A stretch of 8,509 nt of DNA. Origin: a bacterium. GTDB lineage: Bacteria > Vulcanimicrobiota > Vulcanimicrobiia > Vulcanimicrobiales > SCRA01. Of this stretch, positions 397-8,362 are shown piece by piece (positions within the stretch are counted from its first letter, which is position 1; each line of letters begins with the position of its first letter). The stretch lies in NCBI GenBank assembly GCA_004298675.1, contig SCRI01000005.1:1-8509 (forward strand), read 5' to 3'. Made by a program: the position numbers and the translations under genes. The notes beneath the pieces were generated by a model. The model saw nothing but the letters and a program-made list of their open reading frames with translations. It was not told the origin of the DNA and ran no database searches.

Positions 397-414
397 TGTT
401 ATAGTCACAGTATG
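397..414 (+). promoter_or_regulatory. Dyad promoter motif copy A (leaderless start)
   Basis: Extended -10 TG-T-TATAGT (397-405) is followed by CAC and AGTATG. The base 7 nt after the -10 box is A412, the first base of the start codon of the next gene, so the transcript would have no leader. One mismatch to the shared core TATACT-N3-AGTATG. No -35 hexamer is visible. Confidence 0.6.
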
Positions 415-996
415 GCTATGGTCGTACTCGAGCTCTCTTACGACGACATGCCCGCCGCCCGGTCGACGCTCAAGGCTCTCACTACACGGTATTGCTTCTG
501 GTGGTGGCTCCCGTTCGCTTTGGTCGCATGCACTGGCGTCATCCTCATCCGCGCCCGGTTTGTCGATGTATTGCCAGCGTCTACGGCCTCCGCCTTCCTA
601 GGCTCTGCGATGCTCGGGCTCGTCGCCGGCTTAGTCGGTCACGAGCTGATTCACATTCTCGCTTATGACTGGCAGGGTATCCGGGCGTATCTGATGCCAG
701 TACGTCGATCCCTGTCTGAGCTTCACACGCTGGCCACGACGACGCGCGGTGACTATTCCGGACGGAGCGCGGCCGTTGCGCTACTGGCACCATTCGCTGT
801 AGGCGTCGTCATTGCTGCGCTGACGTTGCCGTCCGCCGTCGTGGGACGCCGCCCTGTCTCGGTATTTCTATTCGTTTTCGCATTAGCATGCTTTGGCGGC
901 GCGGGATCGGACGTCACCCAAGCGTTGTTCTGCCTTGCATCGCCGACCCGGCGCGTCTATGAGGACGAGCACGTCCGTAGATTCTACGACCAATGA
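412..996 (+). CDS. Integral membrane protein with HELIH zinc-protease motif (DUF3267-like)
   Basis: 194 aa, with about four hydrophobic segments (roughly residues 30-48, 60-82, 118-140 and 148-175). The second contains H77-E-L-I-H81, the HExxH zinc-binding motif, preceded by Gly. A later membrane segment carries Asp167 in a Gly-rich context (GGAGSDVTQ), placed where intramembrane zincins supply a third ligand. This layout matches the DUF3267 'putative zincin peptidase' group, whose substrates are mostly unknown. Activity here is inferred from the motif only. The ATG at 412 is chosen because it lies at the predicted transcription start of copy A and has no Shine-Dalgarno site; the frame is open further upstream, but that extension would read through the motif. 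It heads a unit followed by a 33-aa peptide 14 nt downstream. Confidence 0.75.
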   Translation: MAMVVLELSYDDMPAARSTLKALTTRYCFWWWLPFALVACTGVILIRARFVDVLPASTASAFLGSAMLGLVAGLVGHELIHILAYDWQGIRAYLMPVRRSLSELHTLATTTRGDYSGRSAAVALLAPFAVGVVIAALTLPSAVVGRRPVSVFLFVFALACFGGAGSDVTQALFCLASPTRRVYEDEHVRRFYDQ

Positions 997-1010
997 GAGG
1001 AGCGCGCTTC

Positions 1011-1112
1011 ATGAATGGCCGCCGTATCTTCTTCGGTTACATGCTCCTGCGCGATCTGCTCACCGGGCGCTGGCTCCTCGCGCTTCTCGACGTCGTTTTC
1101 TTTCGGCGCTAA
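1011..1112 (+). CDS. 33-aa hydrophobic small protein
   Basis: A short gene supported by a strong Shine-Dalgarno site, GAGAGGAG at 995-1002 (overlapping the previous stop), 8 nt before the ATG. The product has a basic start (NGRR), then alternating aromatic and leucine-rich stretches (IFFGYMLL, RWLLALLDVVFF), ending in two Arg residues. It could be a single amphipathic or membrane-associated helix. Its stop codon is part of an AAGGAG that precedes the next frame. Placed directly after a membrane zincin-like protein, it might be a partner or a small regulator, but this is only proximity. Confidence 0.55.
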   Translation: MNGRRIFFGYMLLRDLLTGRWLLALLDVVFFRR

Positions 1113-1147
1113 GGAGTATGCGTGCATCACGCCGAAAGCGCCATCCC

Positions 1148-1378
1148 ATGAGCGCGCTGCGAATCACCATCCGCGGCAAATCGCACATCGTCGGCGAGAT
1201 CTACGACGACCGCCTGCCGCTGTGTGATTATTGCCACACGCAACAAATCCCATTCGACCGTCTGTTCGTGGCGTTGGCCGCCCGCCGTCGCGATACCGAG
1301 CGCTACTATTGCTCGCAGGCGTGCGCGAAAAATGCGGCGACGAAGCGCTACCGCGAGCGGAAGCGCAGCGCCAAATAA
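1148..1378 (+). CDS. Small Cys4 zinc-finger protein, basic C-terminus
   Basis: 76 aa. C26-x2-C29 and C55-x3-C59 are spaced like a treble-clef or FCS/CGNR-type zinc finger, and the second pair is followed by a very basic helix (KRYRERKRSAK) as in CGNR-like proteins. A nucleic-acid-binding role is likely. The N-terminal 25 residues look like a small beta-strand pair. The frame also has an ATG at 1118, but there the AAGGAG lies only 1 nt away, too close for normal initiation. ATG 1148 begins a more protein-like sequence although its Shine-Dalgarno site is weak. Last gene of unit A; a hairpin follows at once. Confidence 0.65.
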   Translation: MSALRITIRGKSHIVGEIYDDRLPLCDYCHTQQIPFDRLFVALAARRRDTERYYCSQACAKNAATKRYRERKRSAK

Positions 1379-1398
1379 GATCGGCCAGCGGCGCGATC
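1379..1398 (+). terminator. Hairpin after unit A
   Basis: GATCG-GCC (1379-1386) pairs with GGC-CGATC, with one bulged G and a 3-nt loop, directly after the TAA at 1376-1378. No U-tract. Possible weak terminator. The rest of the gap up to 1458 shows nothing I recognise. Confidence 0.3.
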
Positions 1399-1458
1399 GT
1401 ATATCCTCGACGGCGACGAAGACCGGCGATTAGCCCCACCCACAGCGTCTCTCAAGAC

Positions 1459-1481
1459 GTGCTATACTATCAGTATAGCAC
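1459..1481 (+). promoter_or_regulatory. Dyad promoter motif copy B: perfect palindrome
   Basis: Two exact 10-bp inverted arms (1459-1468 and 1472-1481) surround a 3-nt spacer. The left arm contains an extended -10, TG-C-TATACT. The expected transcription start, A1475, is followed by TA rather than TG, so this copy cannot begin a leaderless ATG frame. The gene behind it uses a normal Shine-Dalgarno site with a leader of about 31 nt. The extra symmetry is what a dimeric repressor or activator site would show. Confidence 0.65.
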
Positions 1482-1505
1482 CTTGCTTTGTTGGAGGCGC
1501 GCTCA

Positions 1506-1790
1506 GTGTCCAGGTATGCGCTCGCATCTTCCATGCTCACCACTGGGAAACAGGTCATCGTAGGATACGATCGCCCGCTCGACTACTACTTCGCGCAGGT
1601 CGTCGGAGGCTTCGGTGACGTCGCCTCGCTGGACGGGATGTCCGGCTACATTGACCTCGATCATCTCGTAAAGGGCATCGCGCCGTACGCGGCGATGACC
1701 GACGCCGCGCTCGGGCGACTCGCGCGCGACCGCAGGGAGCGCATCGGCAACGCCGTCGGCGTTCTCAACGACGATGGGACCGTTAAGTAG
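1506..1790 (+). CDS. Small protein of unknown function, 94 aa (GYDRPLDYYFAQV)
   Basis: Starts with GTG 1506, chosen for the GGAGG at 1493-1497 with 8-nt spacing; an in-frame TTG at 1488 lies upstream of that site and is rejected. Residues 15-34 (KQVIVGYDRPLDYYFAQVVG) look like a conserved block: a beta strand, a Gly-[YW]-Asp-Arg-Pro turn, then an aromatic strand. Short proteins with a similar block occur in accessory regions of many bacteria, but I know no function. The C-terminal part (about 60-85) is an Arg-rich helix. First gene of unit B, which ends in the methyltransferase. Confidence 0.7.
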   Translation: MSRYALASSMLTTGKQVIVGYDRPLDYYFAQVVGGFGDVASLDGMSGYIDLDHLVKGIAPYAAMTDAALGRLARDRRERIGNAVGVLNDDGTVK

Positions 1791-1811
1791 CGCGGCGGGA
1801 GGAGCGTCACG

Positions 1812-2093
1812 ATGATCAAGATCCAACGGTCGGTCTGTTACGGGAAGAACTACGACGGGGCGCGCGGACCCAAGGGTGCGCAGCAGCCCTGTTGCCTATG
1901 CGGCATCGGCATCCACGCTCCGGGCGCGTACCTGCACTTGCACGACGGCGGTGGGTTCGCCGTGACCGAGAGCGAGGCGATGATCCTGAGCGCGGCCGGT
2001 GACCTCGGCCTGCACCCCATCGGCCCCGAGTGCATCCGTCGGCGGCCAGAGTTGGCGCCGTACGTCGTGCGGACTCCGGAGCGTGCCCGATGA
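1812..2093 (+). CDS. Small Cys-motif (putative zinc-binding) protein, 93 aa
   Basis: Shine-Dalgarno GGGAGGAG (1797-1804) lies 7 nt before the ATG. The protein has C27-C-L-C30 in the N-terminal part and a GPEC motif (C74) followed by an Arg-rich segment, with histidines at 36, 42 and 44 between. This CxxC...GPxC layout is frequent in small phage-encoded proteins and suggests one structural zinc. No enzyme signature is present. Its TGA stop overlaps the ATG of the methyltransferase (ATGA at 2090-2093), so the two are probably co-translated. Confidence 0.7.
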   Translation: MIKIQRSVCYGKNYDGARGPKGAQQPCCLCGIGIHAPGAYLHLHDGGGFAVTESEAMILSAAGDLGLHPIGPECIRRRPELAPYVVRTPERAR

Positions 2094-3190
2094 TAACGGT
2101 TCCGATCGCGGCCCACGACGCCGCCGGCGTCGTGGCGCTGCTGGCTGACCACACCTATGACGAGGTCGAACGCCTCACGGGATGGTCGAAGGGGCGGATC
2201 TGGCGCGCGGCCGTTGAGCGCCGAGCGCGAAAAACGGAGACCCGCATCCGGGAGCGCGGCGAGGAGCGTCGCCGGCGCCAAGAAGAGACGCTGCGCGCGA
2301 TCATTGGCGACACAGTGACAGCCGATGTCATGGACTTCTTCGATTCATTGCCGGACGATTCGCTCGACCTCATCGTCACGTCCGTGCCCTACAACATCGG
2401 CAAGCCCTACGGCGGCGCCCCGCAGAGCGACCACATGCGCCACCTCCGCTATCACGGGTGGATGATGCAAGTGATCTCGGAAATGGCCCGCGCGCTGAAG
2501 CCCGATGCGGTAGCCTTCGTCCAGCTTGGCAATACGCGCGATGACCTCGATCAGACGGTCCCCCTCGACGTCCTGTTCTACGATGCCTTCCGCCGCGCCG
2601 GTCTCACCTTCCAGAATCGCGTCATCTGGACCAAGAACCACGGACTCCAGCCAAAAGGACGCTTGGCTGAACGCTATGAGACGGCGCTTGTCTGGTGCAA
2701 AGGGGACACACCCCGCTTCAATGCAACAGCCGCGCGCACTCCGCAGCTGCACCCCGGCAAACGCTCCTTCAAGGGCGCGCACGCTGGTGAGCTTTCGTGC
2801 CACCCTCTCGGCGCATGGCCCTCAGATGTTTGGGACATCGGGCAGATCAAACACAACCACCCCGAGCGCACCGGCCACCCGGCGCAGTATCCGCTCGCTC
2901 TGGCGAAACGTGCGGTGAACCTCTACAGCCTGCCCGGTGAACTCGTGTGCGACCCGTTCTCGGGTAGCGGAACCACGGCCGCGGCCTGCGTCGAGGCCGG
3001 CCGGGCCTTCGTCGGCGCCGACCTCTTCTACAGCGACCTGCGTCGACAGCGACTCGCGGCCGTCGTTCCCGATACCGTCACGGCGCTCCCGGGCGTCAGC
3101 GAGGACAACCTTGCCGTTTGGCAGGCTGAAGCGCGCCGGCGTGACATTGGCGTAACGCCGCTCATGCTCACACCCATACCGCCACAGTAG
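2090..3190 (+). CDS. DNA methyltransferase (N4-cytosine/N6-adenine, beta-type order) with N-terminal HTH
   Basis: 366 aa. Catalytic motif IV is TSVPY (97-101), a variant of the usual SPPY/NPPY in which the first Pro is Val. SAM-binding motif I, DPFSGSGTT (288-296), lies near the C-terminus. The order IV...I with the likely target-recognition region between them (about 180-265) is the beta-class arrangement of amino-methyltransferases, which modify N4 of cytosine or N6 of adenine; I cannot say which. Residues about 22-48 (TYDEVERLTGWSKGRIWRAA) form a helix-turn-helix-like module, followed by an Arg/Glu-rich linker to about 70. ATG 2090 is set by the ATGA overlap and a GGAG at 2078-2081. No restriction endonuclease is adjacent, so an orphan, host-mimicking or regulatory methylase is likely. 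Confidence 0.92.
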   Translation: MITVPIAAHDAAGVVALLADHTYDEVERLTGWSKGRIWRAAVERRARKTETRIRERGEERRRRQEETLRAIIGDTVTADVMDFFDSLPDDSLDLIVTSVPYNIGKPYGGAPQSDHMRHLRYHGWMMQVISEMARALKPDAVAFVQLGNTRDDLDQTVPLDVLFYDAFRRAGLTFQNRVIWTKNHGLQPKGRLAERYETALVWCKGDTPRFNATAARTPQLHPGKRSFKGAHAGELSCHPLGAWPSDVWDIGQIKHNHPERTGHPAQYPLALAKRAVNLYSLPGELVCDPFSGSGTTAAACVEAGRAFVGADLFYSDLRRQRLAAVVPDTVTALPGVSEDNLAVWQAEARRRDIGVTPLMLTPIPPQ

Positions 3191-3210
3191 GTTGCCCTCA
3201 CACGTGCGAG

Positions 3211-3258
3211 TCGTCGACGTCGTGCCATCGTGCTGTAGCCGCGACGTCACGTCGACGA
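3211..3258 (+). terminator. Long-loop hairpin after the methyltransferase
   Basis: A perfect 10-bp inverted repeat (3211-3220 with 3249-3258) encloses 28 nt, beginning 20 nt after the TAG of the methyltransferase. No U-tract. It may end unit B or form part of a structured leader before copy C. Confidence 0.3.
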
Positions 3259-3274
3259 GGAGGTAGCCTACCAG

Positions 3275-3319
3275 ATGTCGCGGCTGCTGTACTTGAATCC
3301 TGCTATACTACGAGTATGA
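3275..3319 (+). CDS. Possible 14-aa micro-ORF ending on the copy C start codon
   Basis: Reads MSRLLYLNPAILRV and stops at TGA 3317-3319, which overlaps ATG 3316 (ATGA). A long Shine-Dalgarno sequence, GAGGAGG (3257-3263), precedes it with rather wide 11-nt spacing. If transcription continues through from unit B, ribosomes could be passed from here to the 38-aa leader ORF. The frame is very short and could be chance. Confidence 0.2.
   Translation: MSRLLYLNPAILRV
3301..3318 (+). promoter_or_regulatory. Dyad promoter motif copy C
   Basis: Extended -10 TG-C-TATACT (3301-3309), spacer ACG, then AGTATG; exact match to the consensus core. The expected start A3316 is the first base of an ATG opening a 38-codon frame. 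Confidence 0.65.
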
Positions 3320-3432
3320 GGTTGTGGCAAGGATCACTCTCGATGCCCTGCGCGTCACGACGCAAGAGACTGCGGTCGAGCGTCACCTGTTTACGGCGTT
3401 GCGTGTATGCGGGGGCGTGGGGTAGCCGATGA
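3316..3432 (+). CDS. Leaderless 38-aa leader ORF of unit C
   Basis: Begins at the predicted transcription start of copy C and runs 38 codons, ending in TGA 3430-3432 that overlaps the ATG of the next gene (ATGA at 3429-3432). The peptide is strongly basic and Cys-containing (C12, C25, C29; many Arg), with no recognised domain. The exact overlap with a good downstream gene argues that it is translated, either as a coupling leader or as a small protein. No Shine-Dalgarno site precedes it, as expected for a leaderless start. Confidence 0.45.
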   Translation: MRLWQGSLSMPCASRRKRLRSSVTCLRRCVYAGAWGSR

Positions 3433-3821
3433 GCGCGATACCCAGGCACGAGGCCTTCGGCTGGAAGGCAGAGGAGATCGCGTTCGTACGGAGCCGTTTA
3501 CCAGTAATCTCGCGGGCGGTGATTCTACGTGAACTGCGCGAGCGTTTCGGCGCGGACCGTGGCTATCCAACTGATGGCCTGCGCCGCTTGGCACGCCGTC
3601 TCCGCGTGGGAGAGCCGGGACTCACACGGGCGCACGTCAGCCGAGAGCAGCGGTTGACCCACAAGCGGACGTGGCACGCGCGGCGCCGCACCTTGGAACG
3701 ATTCGCAGCCAGGCGCATTCGCGACATGGGGTCAGTACTGCGGCGATTCACCGCCGAGGAGATCCCCGCGCTTGCGTTTCCGCACGGCGGGACTAGTGCC
3801 AGATCGGGGGTCCTACCATGA
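3429..3821 (+). CDS. Basic, helix-rich putative DNA-binding protein, 130 aa
   Basis: The N-terminal 60 residues (W12...EEIAFVRSRLPVISRAVILRELRERFG, then a basic third helix ARRLRV) fit a Myb/SANT- or HTH-like three-helix pattern seen in phage regulators. The middle (65-105) is very Arg/His-rich and may contact nucleic acid. The C-terminal 25 residues look disordered. Start and stop both overlap neighbours by ATGA (3429-3432 and 3818-3821), giving a three-frame coupled chain: leader ORF, this gene, membrane protein. Only a G-rich stretch (3417-3422) could act as a Shine-Dalgarno site, so coupling is probably important. It is a candidate regulator of the element, but nothing links it to the dyad motif apart from position. 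Confidence 0.65.
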   Translation: MSAIPRHEAFGWKAEEIAFVRSRLPVISRAVILRELRERFGADRGYPTDGLRRLARRLRVGEPGLTRAHVSREQRLTHKRTWHARRRTLERFAARRIRDMGSVLRRFTAEEIPALAFPHGGTSARSGVLP

Positions 3822-4648
3822 AACAACACTTCTGGTACCCCGTAACGCTCGTGACAATCGCGGCGTGGGTTGCAGTCGTGCGGATCGTTATGGTCGTCAC
3901 GCGTCCGGGCGCCCTGTTCCCGCACCTTCTTTTCGCGCTCGCTATCGCCGCTATCACCGCGTTTGGCTGCGTCTTTGTCTGGCGAACAGCGAGCGCCGGG
4001 GGCCCGTGGTGGCGGCCGCTCATCGTAGGCGGGGTCGCCGATGTCGTAGTGATGGTCCTCGTGTTCACAGTCGTGGACATGCCGCTTCTCAACCAGTGGG
4101 GCGCTCCGCTCCTCGTCGTCGATAGCAAAGCGATCGAATGCACCACAGTCGAGACAGCGCCGTGCGACGCTCTGAACTACATCGGCGCTGGTACGGTCGC
4201 CGAGGCGGTGGGAAGGCGAGCCATCGCGTCGGCCCTCGAACTCGGTGGCAGTCAGTCCGCCGCCCACGACTATGCGCCCTGTCGCTCGCTGCCAGTTGCC
4301 GCTAGCTGGGCTGCGCTCCGGTCTCCCCACTATCGTCTGCTTTACGCAGATGGGATGCATGAGGTCGGGCGCTGCCAGGCTATGCGAGGTCAGACAGCCG
4401 CCAGCATGCAAGCGTATATCATCGCCGCTCAGTGCCTCCTACCCGCCACGACGTTGCCACGCACGTCAGTTGCGTGCCTTAGCACCGACGACCATCACGT
4501 TGTCATAACTGCGTACTACTTAGCCGAGCAGGATCGCTATCACCGCATTGCCCACGCTATTAGTCAGAGGCTTGCTCCTGGCACCATCCATCGGCTATGC
4601 TCCCGCCGTCATCCTGTGTTCTTTGCCGATGCTTGCGTGGGCTCATAG
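3818..4648 (+). CDS. Membrane protein with three N-terminal TM segments and unusual C-terminal half
   Basis: 276 aa. Hydrophobic segments at about 9-28, 34-55 and 66-88 are followed by a long non-membrane part that begins with Cys108 and Cys116 and a small Gly/Ala-rich region (YIGAGTVAEAVGRRAIASALELGG, about 121-144). If the third segment sends the tail outward, its cysteines could form disulfides; topology is a guess. The second half (from about 146) has a different look, rich in His, Tyr, Cys and Ala, with no domain that I recognise. A frameshift or a second overlapping frame in that half cannot be excluded. Start set by the ATGA overlap with the preceding gene; its own Shine-Dalgarno site is weak. 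A long minus-strand frame across this gene is a shadow. Confidence 0.6.
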   Translation: MKQHFWYPVTLVTIAAWVAVVRIVMVVTRPGALFPHLLFALAIAAITAFGCVFVWRTASAGGPWWRPLIVGGVADVVVMVLVFTVVDMPLLNQWGAPLLVVDSKAIECTTVETAPCDALNYIGAGTVAEAVGRRAIASALELGGSQSAAHDYAPCRSLPVAASWAALRSPHYRLLYADGMHEVGRCQAMRGQTAASMQAYIIAAQCLLPATTLPRTSVACLSTDDHHVVITAYYLAEQDRYHRIAHAISQRLAPGTIHRLCSRRHPVFFADACVGS

Positions 4649-4838
4649 ACTGCCCGCTGCGCATACTCTTGCTATCCCGGTCCTCGTCGCCCAAGTCGCC
4701 GGCGACATGGAGATCGTCGTTATCGGCAGCCAGGCGATCGCCGCTCCCTTGCGTTTACTAGCCGCGGCACATGGCGATACGGACATTGCACTAGGTGTTC
4801 ACGCTGCGGCGGCAGACACTCACCGCTCTCTGCTCTGA
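4629..4838 (+). CDS. Possible truncated nucleotidyltransferase-like fragment
   Basis: A frame open from 4524 to the TGA at 4836-4838, overlapping the end of the membrane protein. ATG 4629 gives 69 aa, but no Shine-Dalgarno site is present and upstream TTG starts are possible. The stretch GDMEIVVIGSQAI followed 13 residues later by GDTDIAL resembles the start of Pol-beta-type nucleotidyltransferases (h-G-[GS]...D-x-D), but the protein ends about 20 residues further on, far too soon for a whole domain. It may be a remnant, a frameshifted gene, or a coincidence. Two hairpins follow at once, consistent with a unit end here. Confidence 0.3.
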   Translation: MLAWAHRLPAAHTLAIPVLVAQVAGDMEIVVIGSQAIAAPLRLLAAAHGDTDIALGVHAAAADTHRSLL

Positions 4839-4841
4839 GTA

Positions 4842-4863
4842 ATCGTCTTCTCCGGTAGACGAT
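4842..4863 (+). terminator. Hairpin 1 after unit C
   Basis: ATCGTCT (4842-4848) pairs with AGACGAT (4857-4863) around an 8-nt loop, 3 nt after the stop at 4836-4838. No U-tract. Confidence 0.35.
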
Positions 4864-4878
4864 ACCCCTCGCGACGAC

Positions 4879-4898
4879 GAGAGCGCCGCATCGCTCTC
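4879..4898 (+). terminator. Hairpin 2 after unit C
   Basis: GAGAGCG (4879-4885) pairs with CGCTCTC (4892-4898) around a 6-nt loop, followed by a pyrimidine-rich stretch (CCTCTGTCTCTC) rather than a pure U-tract. Tandem with the hairpin at 4842. The remaining sequence to 4977 holds nothing I recognise. Confidence 0.35.
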
Positions 4899-4977
4899 CC
4901 TCTGTCTCTCGGCCCCATCTCTGTGCCATGGCCATGCCGCTGCGCTGCTGCTCCTCAACACGCGCCCCATTGCACTC

Positions 4978-4995
4978 GGCTATACTATAAGTATG
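4978..4995 (+). promoter_or_regulatory. Dyad promoter motif copy D
   Basis: TATACT (4981-4986), spacer ATA, then AGTATG; exact core match, but the extended -10 TG is GG here. The expected start A4993 opens a 14-codon frame. A TTGCAC at 4970-4975 is only 5 nt from the -10 box, too close for a -35 box. Confidence 0.6.
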
Positions 4996-5037
4996 ACAGT
5001 TTCCTGCCGTTCCCCATTTATCTCGGTGCTCGCATGA
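4993..5037 (+). CDS. Leaderless 14-aa leader ORF of unit D
   Basis: MTVSCRSPFISVLA, starting exactly at the predicted transcription start and ending in a TGA that overlaps the ATG of the following HTH gene (ATGA at 5034-5037). The downstream gene has no good Shine-Dalgarno site, so it probably depends on re-initiation after this leader. No similarity to the other leader peptides. Confidence 0.42.
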   Translation: MTVSCRSPFISVLA

Positions 5038-5219
5038 ACGCCCGAGCCGCCGCCGCCCTCGCGCACTCGTGGGCCGCGTCCGACGCCATGACCAACACCC
5101 GCCGCTCTCCACGCGAGATCACTCTCTTTCTCCGTAGGAACGGTGCCATCTCCGCAGCCGCGCACCGAACGGGTATCAGCGCCTACTACCGAACGCTCCG
5201 CAAGCAGTCTGCCGCCTAG
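5034..5219 (+). CDS. Small HTH (Fis-like) DNA-binding protein, 61 aa
   Basis: Residues 27-56 (REITLFLRRNGAISAAAHRTGISAYYRTLRK) fit a helix-turn-helix of the Fis/'aAl-x-x-G...AA..lGis' pattern: a helix ending in R-x-G, an Ala-rich helix (ISAAAHRTG), then a recognition helix (SAYYRTLRK). The N-terminal 20 residues are Ala-rich and may help dimerisation. As a small stand-alone DNA-binding protein it is a candidate for a regulator of the element, including of its own promoter; this is inference. Translation is likely coupled to the 14-aa leader. Its stop codon lies in the loop of a hairpin. Confidence 0.7.
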   Translation: MNARAAAALAHSWAASDAMTNTRRSPREITLFLRRNGAISAAAHRTGISAYYRTLRKQSAA

Positions 5220-5228
5220 GTGCGGCAG
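5209..5228 (+). terminator. Hairpin over the stop codon of the HTH gene
   Basis: CTGCCGC (5209-5215) pairs with GCGGCAG (5222-5228); the 6-nt loop contains the TAG stop. Terminator-like stem but no U-tract. Confidence 0.45.
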
Positions 5229-5418
5229 CTCCCACTAATGGCGGTTGCGCGTAATGGCGCTCGGTAACCGCACCCATACGGATGCGTCGTCTTGTTCCGA
5301 CGGTGTAGCGCTGCAGCTTGCCTCACGCGCATGGCGAGCGATTCCGCCTCGACCGATCTGCATACGAGAGCCACCTCCTTCTTGACGAATGCGGCACGCG
5401 GCAGCGCTGAGCTCGATG
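5229..5418 (+). other. Non-coding stretch with further hairpins
   Basis: No supported gene in this part. A compound stem (GCGGTT 5241-5246 with AACCGC 5266-5271, inner GCGC 5247-5250 with GCGC 5257-5260) and a small one (CGTCG 5285-5289 with CGACG 5298-5302) follow the terminator-like hairpin at 5209-5228. An 8-nt direct repeat TAATGGCG occurs at 5237 and 5252. It could be a structured transcript end or a small RNA, or just GC-rich folding. From 5303 to 5418 I see nothing definite. Confidence 0.3.
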
Positions 5419-5436
5419 CGCTATACTAGGTGTATG
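5419..5436 (+). promoter_or_regulatory. Dyad promoter motif copy E
   Basis: TATACT (5422-5427), spacer AGG, then TGTATG (one mismatch). The extended -10 TG is CG here. The expected start A5434 is the first base of an ATG opening an 11-codon frame. Confidence 0.55.
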
Positions 5437-5469
5437 GGTGCTGGGCAGTCTGGCTGTCCTTCCGCTTGA
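5434..5469 (+). CDS. Leaderless 11-aa leader ORF of unit E
   Basis: MGAGQSGCPSA, from the predicted transcription start to TGA 5467-5469. The stop lies within the GAGAGGAG Shine-Dalgarno region of the next gene, 13 nt before its ATG, a good distance for re-initiation. Short enough to be chance; supported by the repeated arrangement. Confidence 0.33.
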   Translation: MGAGQSGCPSA

Positions 5470-5482
5470 GAGAGGAGCACGC

Positions 5483-5692
5483 ATGAGCGCTCCTGTTGAG
5501 AGGATTCGCGCCGAGTTGCGGATGGTCGTCGACGCCGGCCGCGATGCGCGTGCGGAGCGTGCTCTGCTGGCGGTGTTGGATGAGTGTGACAGCCGGTGGT
5601 GTTACGACGGTACCGGGCATCCGGAGGACGAGGCGGTGAACGAGGTCGTTCGGGCAGTTCGGGCCGCCGTAGTGCGCGCGTGGGAGGGTTAG
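5483..5692 (+). CDS. Small acidic/amphipathic protein, 69 aa, unknown function
   Basis: Shine-Dalgarno GAGAGGAG (5469-5476) lies 6 nt before ATG 5483. The product is two amphipathic helices (about 4-36 and 49-66) joined by a short loop with C35, C40 and a DGTGHPEDE turn. No family is recognised. First full gene of unit E; the next gene starts 2 nt after its stop. An alternative upstream start at 5438 would overlap the motif and is not favoured. Confidence 0.65.
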   Translation: MSAPVERIRAELRMVVDAGRDARAERALLAVLDECDSRWCYDGTGHPEDEAVNEVVRAVRAAVVRAWEG

Positions 5693-5694
5693 GG

Positions 5695-6222
5695 ATGAGT
5701 AATGGGGGCATGATGGGAGTCGAGCACGACCTGGGGCAACGCCTTCGCGCTTTGGCCGAACGCTGGAAAGATCTGCGCAGCATAGCCGCGGCGACGTTCC
5801 CATCACCACCGGCACGAGTTGCGCCGTTTATCGAGGCCGTGCAAGAAGCCGCCGACGCGATCGAGCGCCTCCAGCGCGACCTGGATGCGGCCCGCCGTAT
5901 GGCGGCGCGCTTCGAAGCCTCATTCATCGCCGCGGATGAGAGCGGGCGTCGCTATGCGCGTCGGGCGGACGCCGCCGAGCGGCAACGTGACGGGATGACC
6001 TCTGAGATCGAGGACCTGCAACGGCGTGTCCAGATCGGGCACGAGGAGCGAGCTGCGTTTCGGCGCGAGATCGACCGCCTACGTCGCCCCGTTGCGATCG
6101 ACGTCGAGGGCCTCGCGCTTGCTATCCACGGCGCGTACGAGCATGAATGCGGCGACGGTGCTCAGTGCCGCGCCATTGCTCGCGCTGCCGCTGGTGTGAT
6201 TTGTGCGAAGGTGAAGGAGTGA
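5695..6222 (+). CDS. Coiled-coil protein, 175 aa, unknown function
   Basis: Shine-Dalgarno GGGAGGG (5682-5688, inside the previous gene) lies 6 nt before the ATG. Residues about 45-140 are rich in Ala, Arg, Glu and Leu with heptad-like spacing (AADAIERLQRDLDAARRM, EIEDLQRRV, REIDRLRR), indicating a long coiled coil. The C-terminal part contains H142, C150 and C157 in an Ala-rich helix (HECGDGAQCRAIARAA), perhaps a small metal or disulfide site. Such proteins are common as phage genes of unknown role. No catalytic motif is seen. A long minus-strand frame overlapping it is a shadow. Confidence 0.7.
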   Translation: MSNGGMMGVEHDLGQRLRALAERWKDLRSIAAATFPSPPARVAPFIEAVQEAADAIERLQRDLDAARRMAARFEASFIAADESGRRYARRADAAERQRDGMTSEIEDLQRRVQIGHEERAAFRREIDRLRRPVAIDVEGLALAIHGAYEHECGDGAQCRAIARAAAGVICAKVKE

Positions 6223-6273
6223 GGCTCGCGGAGACCCAGGCGCGGGCGCGTTACGTGTTACGTGGAGGATAGC

Positions 6274-6519
6274 GTGACGGGAACAGTTTTCGCGCGCGCC
6301 TATGGCGGTCGTCGCTGGCATGCTTTCGCCCCGTGGTATGCACGCGGAGAGACTTCGTTGTGCGGCGAGATGGGGGTTGCCCTGATCAATGATAGGCCAC
6401 TCCATGGCGAAGCCGCATTCCTCTCCAAGCTCGGGTGCAAGAAGTGTCAACGCGCATACTCCCGCCACACGCGTACGACGACCGAGGGCGTTCAAGGGAT
6501 CTCTGGAGATGAGGAATGA
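6274..6519 (+). CDS. Small zinc-finger-like phage-type protein, 81 aa
   Basis: GTG 6274 is chosen for the GGAGG at 6264-6268 with 5-nt spacing; an in-frame GTG at 6262 lies within that site. The protein has the pattern WHAF...TSLCG...CKKC, with H16, C30, C55 and C58 as likely zinc ligands, followed by a basic tail. Small proteins with WH-x(n)-TxCG-x(n)-CxxC are common in actinophage-like genomes and have no established function. The TGA stop overlaps the ATG of the deaminase gene (ATGA at 6516-6519), so both are likely made together. Confidence 0.68.
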   Translation: MTGTVFARAYGGRRWHAFAPWYARGETSLCGEMGVALINDRPLHGEAAFLSKLGCKKCQRAYSRHTRTTTEGVQGISGDEE

Positions 6520-6977
6520 TGCCAGCCTCAGCTGCTGTAGACGCGGCCCTACGTGCATCCCAAGCGTCTCCTTGCCGGAGCAAGCGCGGCGTAGCGATCT
6601 GGCGAGGTGACACCGTCCTTGGCGTCGGCCATAATCGTCAACCCGGCGGCTTCCGTTGCACGGGAGACGATGCGTGTAAAGCCTCTTGCGCGCGCACCGC
6701 AATCCACGCGGAGCAGGCCGCGCTCCTTTCCTCCACCGGCGGCATTCGCGGGGCAGAGATGCTCCATGTGAAGACCGTTGACGGGTTACTCGTCCCGAGC
6801 GGAGGTCCGTCGTGCTTGGAGTGCAGTAAGCTCCTCCTTGAGGCCGGCATCGCTGGGATGTGGCTCTATCATGAGGACGGGTGGCGACGCTACGATGCGC
6901 TCGACTTCCACACGGCCACCCTTAAGCACCACGGGCTGCCGGTGGTCAGGTCGGTAGCTCCTGGCGGGCGCGTTTAG
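6516..6977 (+). CDS. Cytidine/dCMP-deaminase-superfamily protein
   Basis: 153 aa. H64-A-E66 followed by P98-S-C100-x2-C103 is the HAE...PxxC zinc-hydrolase signature of the CDA superfamily: H64, C100 and C103 bind zinc and E66 shuttles the proton. Extra cysteines before the motif (C48, C54, C58 in CTGDDACKASC) could bind a second zinc, as in some dCMP deaminases and their phage relatives. The substrate (free dCMP/cytidine or a nucleic-acid base) cannot be told from sequence. Start ATG 6516 overlaps the previous stop and has GGAG at 6505-6508; ATG 6519 is an alternative. The motif order is complete, so it is probably active. It sits next to an ASCH protein, hinting at nucleotide metabolism or modification. 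Confidence 0.85.
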   Translation: MMPASAAVDAALRASQASPCRSKRGVAIWRGDTVLGVGHNRQPGGFRCTGDDACKASCARTAIHAEQAALLSSTGGIRGAEMLHVKTVDGLLVPSGGPSCLECSKLLLEAGIAGMWLYHEDGWRRYDALDFHTATLKHHGLPVVRSVAPGGRV

Positions 6978-6978
6978 C

Positions 6979-7524
6979 ATGAAAGCCCTGTCCGTCCGCC
7001 AGCCGTGGGCGTACGCGATTCTCCGCCTTGGCAAGTCGGTCGAGAACCGCACCTGGCCGCTCAGGTTGCGCACGCCGTTTGAGTGCGTCATCCATGCCGG
7101 GAAGGCTTGGGGTCGAAGCGAGCGACTCGACCTCGAGGATCTACGGCAGCGGTACGCGATCGCCGACGAGCTCGCGCTCGGCTCGTTACTCGGCATCGTC
7201 ACGGTCACAGGCTGTGTTACGGCGCCGCGCGACGAGCGCGACGGGGAGTGGTTCTGCGGTCCGTATGCGTTTACGCTTGAGAACCCCCGACCATTCGCAG
7301 AGCCGATTCCCTGGAAGGGCGCATTAGGCTTCTTCGACATCGAGATTCCTGCTCACGCCGCGCCGGCGACGGCCGCCGAAGCATGCTCGTGCCGCTGCGT
7401 TCGCTGCGCCCGATTGCGCGGTGCGCCGTCGCCCGCTCACAACGGCCCCTGCTCCTGCAGTACGCACGGTGGTCAGGCGCCGCTTCCGGATCTAGGGGTG
7501 CGGCCGTGCTTGGTGGACCTCTGA
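6979..7524 (+). CDS. ASCH-domain protein with Cys-rich C-terminal extension
   Basis: 181 aa. Residues 1-122 are an ASCH domain: the N-terminal KALSVRQPWAYAI, the signature G18-K-x-x-E22-N-R24, the VIHAGKAW strand, a GIVTVTGCV strand and the closing PWKGALGFFD. ASCH proteins have a PUA-like fold and bind RNA or nucleotides; the bacterial member YqfB hydrolyses N4-acetylcytidine. The exact role here is unknown. After residue 130 comes a tail absent from typical ASCH proteins, with C136, C138, C140, C143, C158, C160 and C177. It may be a metal-binding extension or result from a frame change near 7370. The start lies 1 nt after the deaminase stop with a weak Shine-Dalgarno site. Confidence 0.85.
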   Translation: MKALSVRQPWAYAILRLGKSVENRTWPLRLRTPFECVIHAGKAWGRSERLDLEDLRQRYAIADELALGSLLGIVTVTGCVTAPRDERDGEWFCGPYAFTLENPRPFAEPIPWKGALGFFDIEIPAHAAPATAAEACSCRCVRCARLRGAPSPAHNGPCSCSTHGGQAPLPDLGVRPCLVDL

Positions 7525-7607
7525 TGCCCCGACTCGGCGCTGCAGGCGCTCCTTGCCAGCGCTTCACATTAGTGGCAGCATATCGTTGCCCGCGCTGCCG
7601 AACATAG
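7524..7607 (+). CDS. 27-aa Cys microprotein
   Basis: Begins within the ASCH stop (TGATG at 7522-7526) with a GGTGG-type Shine-Dalgarno site at 7511-7515. Product MPRLGAAGAPCQRFTLVAAYRCPRCRT: C11 plus a C-terminal CPRC, like half of a zinc ribbon. The overlap and Shine-Dalgarno site favour real translation, but the size allows chance. It closes unit E; a strong hairpin follows. Confidence 0.42.
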   Translation: MPRLGAAGAPCQRFTLVAAYRCPRCRT

Positions 7608-7621
7608 GTAAACGATGACCT

Positions 7622-7655
7622 CACGATCCTCCACCTACCGTGGAAAGCGATCGTG
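7622..7655 (+). terminator. Two-step hairpin after unit E
   Basis: Outer stem CACGATC (7622-7628) with GATCGTG (7649-7655), inner stem CCAC (7631-7634) with GTGG (7640-7643). It is the most elaborate hairpin in the window and starts 15 nt after the last stop of the unit. No U-tract. Confidence 0.4.
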
Positions 7656-7829
7656 ACCACCTGGTGCTCGTGCCTGGTGCTGTGGTGGGTACGTGGCCGA
7701 CCGCTATGCCGCCGCTGGCGAGCTTGGCAGCGACCATTGCCCTAAGATATCCCCGGCATCGTTCACCCCTTGCGACGACGGAGACGTCCATCCTCGACCG
7801 CCGCTGCCCACGCACGCGGACCCACTTCC
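7656..7829. other. Gap without a supported gene
   Basis: A plus-strand frame is open across this stretch from 7640 into the last complete gene, but it has no start signal and would run through motif F, so I do not call it. No repeat, RNA gene or Shine-Dalgarno-led frame is evident. It probably serves as spacer and regulatory DNA before copy F. Confidence 0.4.
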
Positions 7830-7847
7830 TGATACACTTACGGTATG
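7830..7847 (+). promoter_or_regulatory. Dyad promoter motif copy F (degenerate)
   Basis: Extended -10 TG-A-TACACT (7830-7838), spacer TAC, then GGTATG. Two mismatches to the core, but the spacing and the ATG at the expected start (A7845) are kept. Confidence 0.5.
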
Positions 7848-7939: not shown

Positions 7940-8362
7940 GTGTTGATCACCGCCGCGGCCTCTATGGCTTCCTGCACTCATGCGCGCGCCCGAGCACTGG
8001 CGCTCCATTGCCGCGTCCTTCGCTTCTTCTTCTCCTGGCCTTTGTCTGTCCGGCGCTTCATTGCTGCCTACGACCGCCTACCTGTGACGGAGCCTTTAGG
8101 CAGCTCCGCCGACGATCTCATCGTCCTACACACCGACGGCACCATCTCTCTCGAGACTACCTACTCGCTCGGCGGAAACGACCATGCCTATTCCTATGCC
8201 GAGACCGAAGGTGTGGATGTACTTGTTACAGCGAGCGGCGACGACCCGCGTCCGTGCCCCTGGCGCGTGGCTGCCTACATCGCGCTAGGCCTCTACGTCG
8301 ATCCGCTGATCTCCGTGTTTCGGGCCCTGGAGTGTAGCCTGCATAGAACGCACAGGCACTAG
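7940..8362 (+). CDS. Hypothetical protein, 140 aa
   Basis: Not recognised. GTG 7940 is chosen for GAGGAG at 7925-7930 (9-nt spacing); TTG 7943 and ATG 7964 are alternatives. The N-terminal 30 residues contain Cys/His/Arg-rich sequence leading into an aromatic stretch (RFFFSWPL, 28-35). Residues 55-100 look like a compact beta-rich domain (DDLIVLHTDGTISLETTYS... GVDVLVTASGDD). The last 30 residues include a hydrophobic helix (AAYIALGLYVDPLISVFRAL), possibly membrane-associated, and a His/Arg tail. The frame is open further upstream, but that part crosses motif F and has no start signal. Confidence 0.5.
   Translation: MLITAAASMASCTHARARALALHCRVLRFFFSWPLSVRRFIAAYDRLPVTEPLGSSADDLIVLHTDGTISLETTYSLGGNDHAYSYAETEGVDVLVTASGDDPRPCPWRVAAYIALGLYVDPLISVFRALECSLHRTHRH

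Follow-up and report, generated by a model that had tools for sequence, protein, structure and literature searches.

The question raised by this locus is what a short dyad does at six places along 8509 bp of DNA. The window, as the whole stretch analysed is called here, is a complete contig (C44) of a 3.03-Mb, 87-contig draft genome (G000), and represents a fragment of an element that was only partly assembled. On the + strand, 15-bp cores begin at 400, 1463, 3304, 4981, 5422 and 7833 with 1, 0, 0, 0, 1 and 2 mismatches to TATACTNNNAGTATR, in agreement with the positions, strand and mismatch counts given in a preliminary description of the sequence. Over both strands of the window, with near-palindromes counted twice, the pattern is matched 11 times against 0.10 expected, and none of 200 shuffles of the window reached 11 matches. 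The motif is genuine: it far exceeds chance expectation and, as shown below, is conserved in a second element.

All window features named below lie on the + strand. Site A (400..414) reads TATAGT-CAC-AGTATG, and its ATG at 412 is the start codon of a 194-aa gene for a DUF3267 putative zincin peptidase (412..996; Pfam 3.9e-6), leaderless by position; a 76-aa protein with two Cys pairs and possible zinc binding is encoded at 1148..1378. Site B (1461..1479) is a perfect dyad, GCTATACT-ATC-AGTATAGC, extending in full to a perfect 9+3+9 dyad, TGCTATACT-ATC-AGTATAGCA; it belongs to a leadered class, with GGAGG ahead of a GTG start, and the first gene of its unit encodes a 94-aa protein with no function assigned (1506..1790), while an N6/N4 DNA methyltransferase lies at 2090..3190 (Pfam 2.3e-41 for the frame). 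Site C (3304..3318; TATACT-ACG-AGTATG) begins a putative 38-codon frame (3316..3432) whose TGA overlaps the ATG at 3429 of a 130-aa basic protein (3429..3821), and site D (4981..4995; TATACT-ATA-AGTATG) begins a putative 14-codon frame (4993..5037) whose TGA overlaps the ATG at 5034 of a 61-aa basic protein (5034..5219). Site E (5422..5436; TATACT-AGG-TGTATG) opens 11 codons followed by GAGAGGAG and an ATG at 5483, and site F, the weakest copy (7833..7847; TACACT-TAC-GGTATG), opens 22 codons followed by GAGGAG and a GTG at 7940. The earlier statement that the motif always lies between genes needs qualifying: the ATG of A is the start codon of the 194-aa gene, and those of C to F open short frames.

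Among 148 related genomes scanned with TATACTNNNAGTATG, a cluster was found, besides the window's own genome, only in a genome of the same genus (G003), where five exact copies occupy a single strand of one 59,719-bp contig (C227; SCQY01000254.1, MAG FW021_bin.42); with one mismatch allowed, this contig holds nearly all G003 sites. A scan of the genome collection with the full dyad returned the same contig as the one meaningful hit, the other matches looking like chance. When IMG/VR was scanned with the full dyad or with GCTATACTNNNAGTATG, the matches were scattered over lower-G+C, mostly AT-rich contigs; these too look like chance and were rejected as true sites. The motif set is known from two elements only. 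C227 carries 14 motif sites, every one facing its genes; it encodes a relaxase of the MobA/VirD2 type (PF03432, 8e-28), and its translations include, by eye, ParA, RecT, a YqaJ-like nuclease, an SSB, an ATP-dependent ligase and DNA methyltransferases. From this gene content, it is taken here for a plasmid or other mobilisable element. It also encodes a GGDEF-like protein, recognised by eye (30960-31931; L085), and its SSB gene (48256-48592) shares 79.5% DNA identity with sequence on a host contig (G000:C32; L069:300-636) and may have been derived from the host ssb.

Common to the two elements are the methyltransferase (71% identical), the 76-aa Cys protein (54%), the 94-aa protein of unit B (47%), the 61-aa protein of unit D (52%, with the motif upstream in both), a protein related to phrog_3193, of unknown function (181 aa in the window, 6979..7524; 1.2e-37), and a fragment of a nucleotidyltransferase. 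The last is a 48-bp stretch of the window (4699-4746), 87.5% identical to part of a DUF6036 nucleotidyltransferase gene of C227, and is probably a gene remnant. A DUF3267-like membrane protein at the matching place in C227 is similar by eye only, as tblastn did not join the pair. The window further encodes a dCMP-deaminase-like protein (6516-6977; phrog_174, 2.8e-10). A phage origin of the window was rejected, as none of 50,697 phage records gave a DNA match; IMG/VR protein searches returned no relatives of the methyltransferase or the 94-aa protein, and only distant relatives, all lacking the motif, of the phrog_3193-type protein.

The six window sites and the 14 from C227 form a set of 20, in which A2, A4, T6, G11, T12, A13 and T14 are invariant and T1 is present in 19; copy F and a small number of the C227 sites are degenerate. 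The preliminary description had placed an inverted repeat on the -10 box, which is borne out by TATACT followed by a conserved GTAT[G/A]; the full arms reach GC, as (GC)TATACT-N3-AGTATA(GC), with the -10 box usually preceded by GC or TGC and the second arm kept in some ATG copies through a second codon GCx. G occurs at -14 in 19/20 sites and TG at -15/-14 in 11/20, and GC at -14/-13 is the sole upstream block conserved in the 20-site matrix. The reported lack of a -35 box, tested as TTGACA, holds, as the mean best match, at spacings of 15-19 bp, is 2.5 of 6 over the 20 sites versus 2.57 in shuffled sequence. Two classes can be distinguished. In the first, comprising 13 of the 20 sites, an ATG placed exactly 6 nt downstream of the -10 box forms the end of the second half. 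Long genes (194, 406, 145, 296, 163 and 581 aa) begin at several of these ATGs and short frames at others; the frames at C, D and C227:18962 overlap the next start codon as ATGA, resembling coupled cistrons. The remaining seven end in ATA or ATC, and their genes start further downstream, mostly behind a purine-rich ribosome-binding site.

Spacing counts indicate that the host group itself uses leaderless promoters of the form TANNNT-N6-ATG. Within stretches of host contigs, 6 nt is the commonest distance from TANNNT to a following ATG (10 cases, against typically 3-4 at other distances), and TAGANT is found at that distance in 5 cases versus 0-1 elsewhere, while in 39 genomes, with G000 and G003 set aside, TATACT-N6-ATG occurs at least 172 times versus 72 for the reversed control. 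This leaderless -10 feature, TANNNT at a fixed 6-nt distance from ATG, was found at most of the 13 ATG sites. It could follow that the motif is a promoter and nothing else, that is, an extended -10 box joined to a leaderless start, in which the favoured context of a start site would account for the GT ahead of ATG without any regulator; indeed, start sites commonly prefer T at -1 and A at +1. This reading appears rather improbable. AGT stands before the ATG in 7 of 8 exact element sites versus 1 of 137 ordinary TATACT-N6-ATG sites among the matches listed for 41 group genomes (Fisher 3e-10), a comparison that is approximate, as the 137 background strings were transcribed by hand and some of their ATGs lie inside genes. 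Because ordinary sites almost never have AGT there, the second half is, as judged from these sequences, more than a start-site signal.

Two further lines of evidence speak against a promoter alone. The ATG-less sites keep the dyad, their leadered copies retaining AGTATAGC, and the half-sites are conserved between the elements while the spacer changes. The latter is seen in three counterpart pairs that precede homologous genes (A/C227:16952, B/C227:15569 and D/C227:13985): the half-sites are identical (6/6 and 5/5 bases), the 30-bp flanks agree at 5-13 of 30 positions (17-43% identical), the spacer is identical in pair A and wholly different in B and D, and ATG and ATA interchange within A and D. 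The proposal that AGTAT is conserved independently of promoter function thus gains from the counterparts, from the leadered copies and from the rarity of AGT in the background. A weight-matrix scan, which had been put forward as a check, was run with the 20 sites and reached a score of at least 18 at ~30 places in the two elements used to build the matrix, with both strands counted, versus 3 in 769 kb of host contigs; this enrichment in the window and C227 supports an element-wide set. An RNA stem was rejected as a reading of the dyad, as transcription beginning at the A of ATG/ATA would leave most of it untranscribed.

As the leadered copies read GCTATACT on either strand, each half could instead be a -10 box for one strand, giving overlapping bidirectional promoters; this is hardly credible, as the window sites all lie among same-direction genes, a reverse transcript would serve no gene, and the reverse -10 in ATG copies would be a weak CATACT. 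Recognition of the whole motif by a dedicated sigma factor, which had also been suggested, has a possible source in a sigma-70-family gene of C227 (43303-44013; L086), in which Pfam finds sigma regions 2 and 4 and which lies second in a unit headed by the motif (site 44518), separated from the first gene by 4 nt. Such a factor is nonetheless highly improbable and seems unnecessary: the -10 boxes are the same as ordinary host boxes, there is no -35, the window, which is a fragment only, has no sigma gene, and a sigma factor would leave the AGTAT half and the reach of the dyad to +3 unexplained.

Outside the elements, the host chromosome carries isolated sites only. In the rest of the 3.03-Mb genome, two further places have at most one mismatch, both at an ATG: C43:140458, and C26:14858, which lies at the start codon of a MazE-like antitoxin with a MazF-like toxin next to it (C26:14858-15444; L008). 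A MazE-like/MazF-like pair with the same dyad and a start that is leaderless by position is also present at G002:C42:625, and across the order TATACT-N4-GT-ATG was found in 7 of 13 MazE-like homologues. This pattern fits operators because MazE-like antitoxins normally repress their own promoters. In another genome, a HipB/HipA-like pair (G001:C424:2565-4155; L087) has a hipB, leaderless by position, that starts within GCTATACT-CAG-AGTATGGC. The MazE-like cases suggest that such a promoter/dyad arrangement arises repeatedly where genes are leaderless. LexA-type control was rejected on the motif matches, recA and lexA not having been searched by name, as the chromosome holds fewer sites than an SOS regulon would need.

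The MazE-like and HipB-like cases also open the way to a chromosomal regulator, for example one of these antitoxins with the same dyad at its own promoter, that controls the element in addition. This is quite improbable, since the dyad was not conserved at the remaining HipB genes inspected and G003, which holds the richest element, has neither a MazE-like nor a HipB-like homologue at 90% completeness; neither was found in the two elements, apart from one 36-residue match (E 0.5).

The reading preferred here, held with a probability of about 0.72, is that each site is a promoter overlaid by an operator, served by the host sigma factor and bound by one dimeric repressor that shuts off the units together. 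Host RNA polymerase with an ordinary sigma factor would initiate at the A of ATG or ATA, so that ATG copies would give leaderless mRNAs and ATA copies short leaders. The dimeric repressor, made by the element or by the host, would bind the inverted repeat, covering -10 to +3, and would block RNA polymerase at -10/+1, thereby silencing all units jointly, and with them most of the element's genes. Upon entry of the element into a repressor-free cell, the units would fire and then settle to a low level. In most copies, promoter, operator and start codon would thus share ~20 bp.

A candidate for the repressor, though a weak one, is the 61-aa protein encoded in unit D, which is basic, is predicted to have three helices (pLDDT 92), is common to both elements and is motif-headed in both. 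The preliminary description had named it as a small HTH protein that might bind the sites; it may yet do so, and may contain an HTH, but no known HTH is a good match for the three helices predicted. It has no Pfam match, the fold search with the window model gave a best Foldseek E-value of 6 and a best VIA-align Z of 5.4 (RecX), and the C227 protein has no homologues in PLSDB, with C227 alone convincing among the related genomes. The basic protein at 3429-3821, also proposed as a binder, loses ground, as it has no homologue in C227. No XRE gene, which a DdrO-type repressor paired with an IrrE protease would call for, was found among the subset of C227 proteins scanned. A bolder version, which is unlikely, posits a novel family of plasmid master repressors to which the 61-aa protein may belong; repressing by covering -10, +1 and the initiation codon wherever genes are leaderless, such a protein would make promoter, operator and translation start one 20-bp element plasmid-wide.

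If the operator-promoter model is correct, it would describe a circuit regulating a whole plasmid in bacteria that have not been cultivated, a group for which, to our knowledge, none has been described. It would also show how an operator can sit in leaderless genes, with one sequence serving RNA polymerase, repressor and ribosome, and the rules of the sequence can be tested directly on the counterpart sites of the two elements.

Parts of this arrangement have precedents. In Deinococcus-Thermus, a -10 motif adjoining ORFs, with TANNNT only a few nucleotides ahead of the start codon, drives leaderless mRNA with a weak need for a -35 (PMC12340547); this use in Deinococcus parallels that of the host group, but the motif has no palindrome and is not element-specific. 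The DdrO/RDRM system of Deinococcus, in which a dimeric XRE repressor acts on a 17-bp palindrome in or very near promoters (PMC5552922), likewise places a palindrome at promoters in bacteria rich in leaderless genes, but it is a chromosomal damage regulon with another sequence, and the position of the RDRM is variable, whereas the present motif is fixed on -10/+1. The stoperators of cluster A mycobacteriophages are many dispersed asymmetric sites for a monomeric repressor that also stops elongation (PMC9283540); they share with the present sites their dispersal across an element for what would here too be one repressor, but are spread also through transcribed regions, whereas the dyads are fixed at starts and promoters.

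Closer parallels are offered by plasmids. In the ArdK/StbA/KorA network of R388, repressors control the promoters of maintenance genes, ssb and ardC among them, by negative feedback (PMC3937220), much as a plasmid repressor would act on the element promoters here; ArdK uses direct repeats at -35 (PMC9723621), whereas the present sites are inverted repeats at -10/+1. KorA of the IncP-1 plasmid RK2/RP4 is a small dimeric repressor whose inverted-repeat sites lie in the -10 regions of promoters plasmid-wide (PMC9723621, PMC4889941). The likeness lies in a -10-region inverted repeat at many element promoters (20 sites in two elements), with maintenance genes being jointly controlled in the KorA system. 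The differences are that no KorA-family protein (PF16509) scored over the cut-off in the four genomes of the genus, as was also the case in control genomes, and that the KorA operator has arms without a spacer, whereas the present operator runs into the start codon. Most probably, the motif is an operator-promoter acting across the plasmid, a regulon type that is already known, here adapted to leaderless genes; the new point would be the start codon inside the operator.
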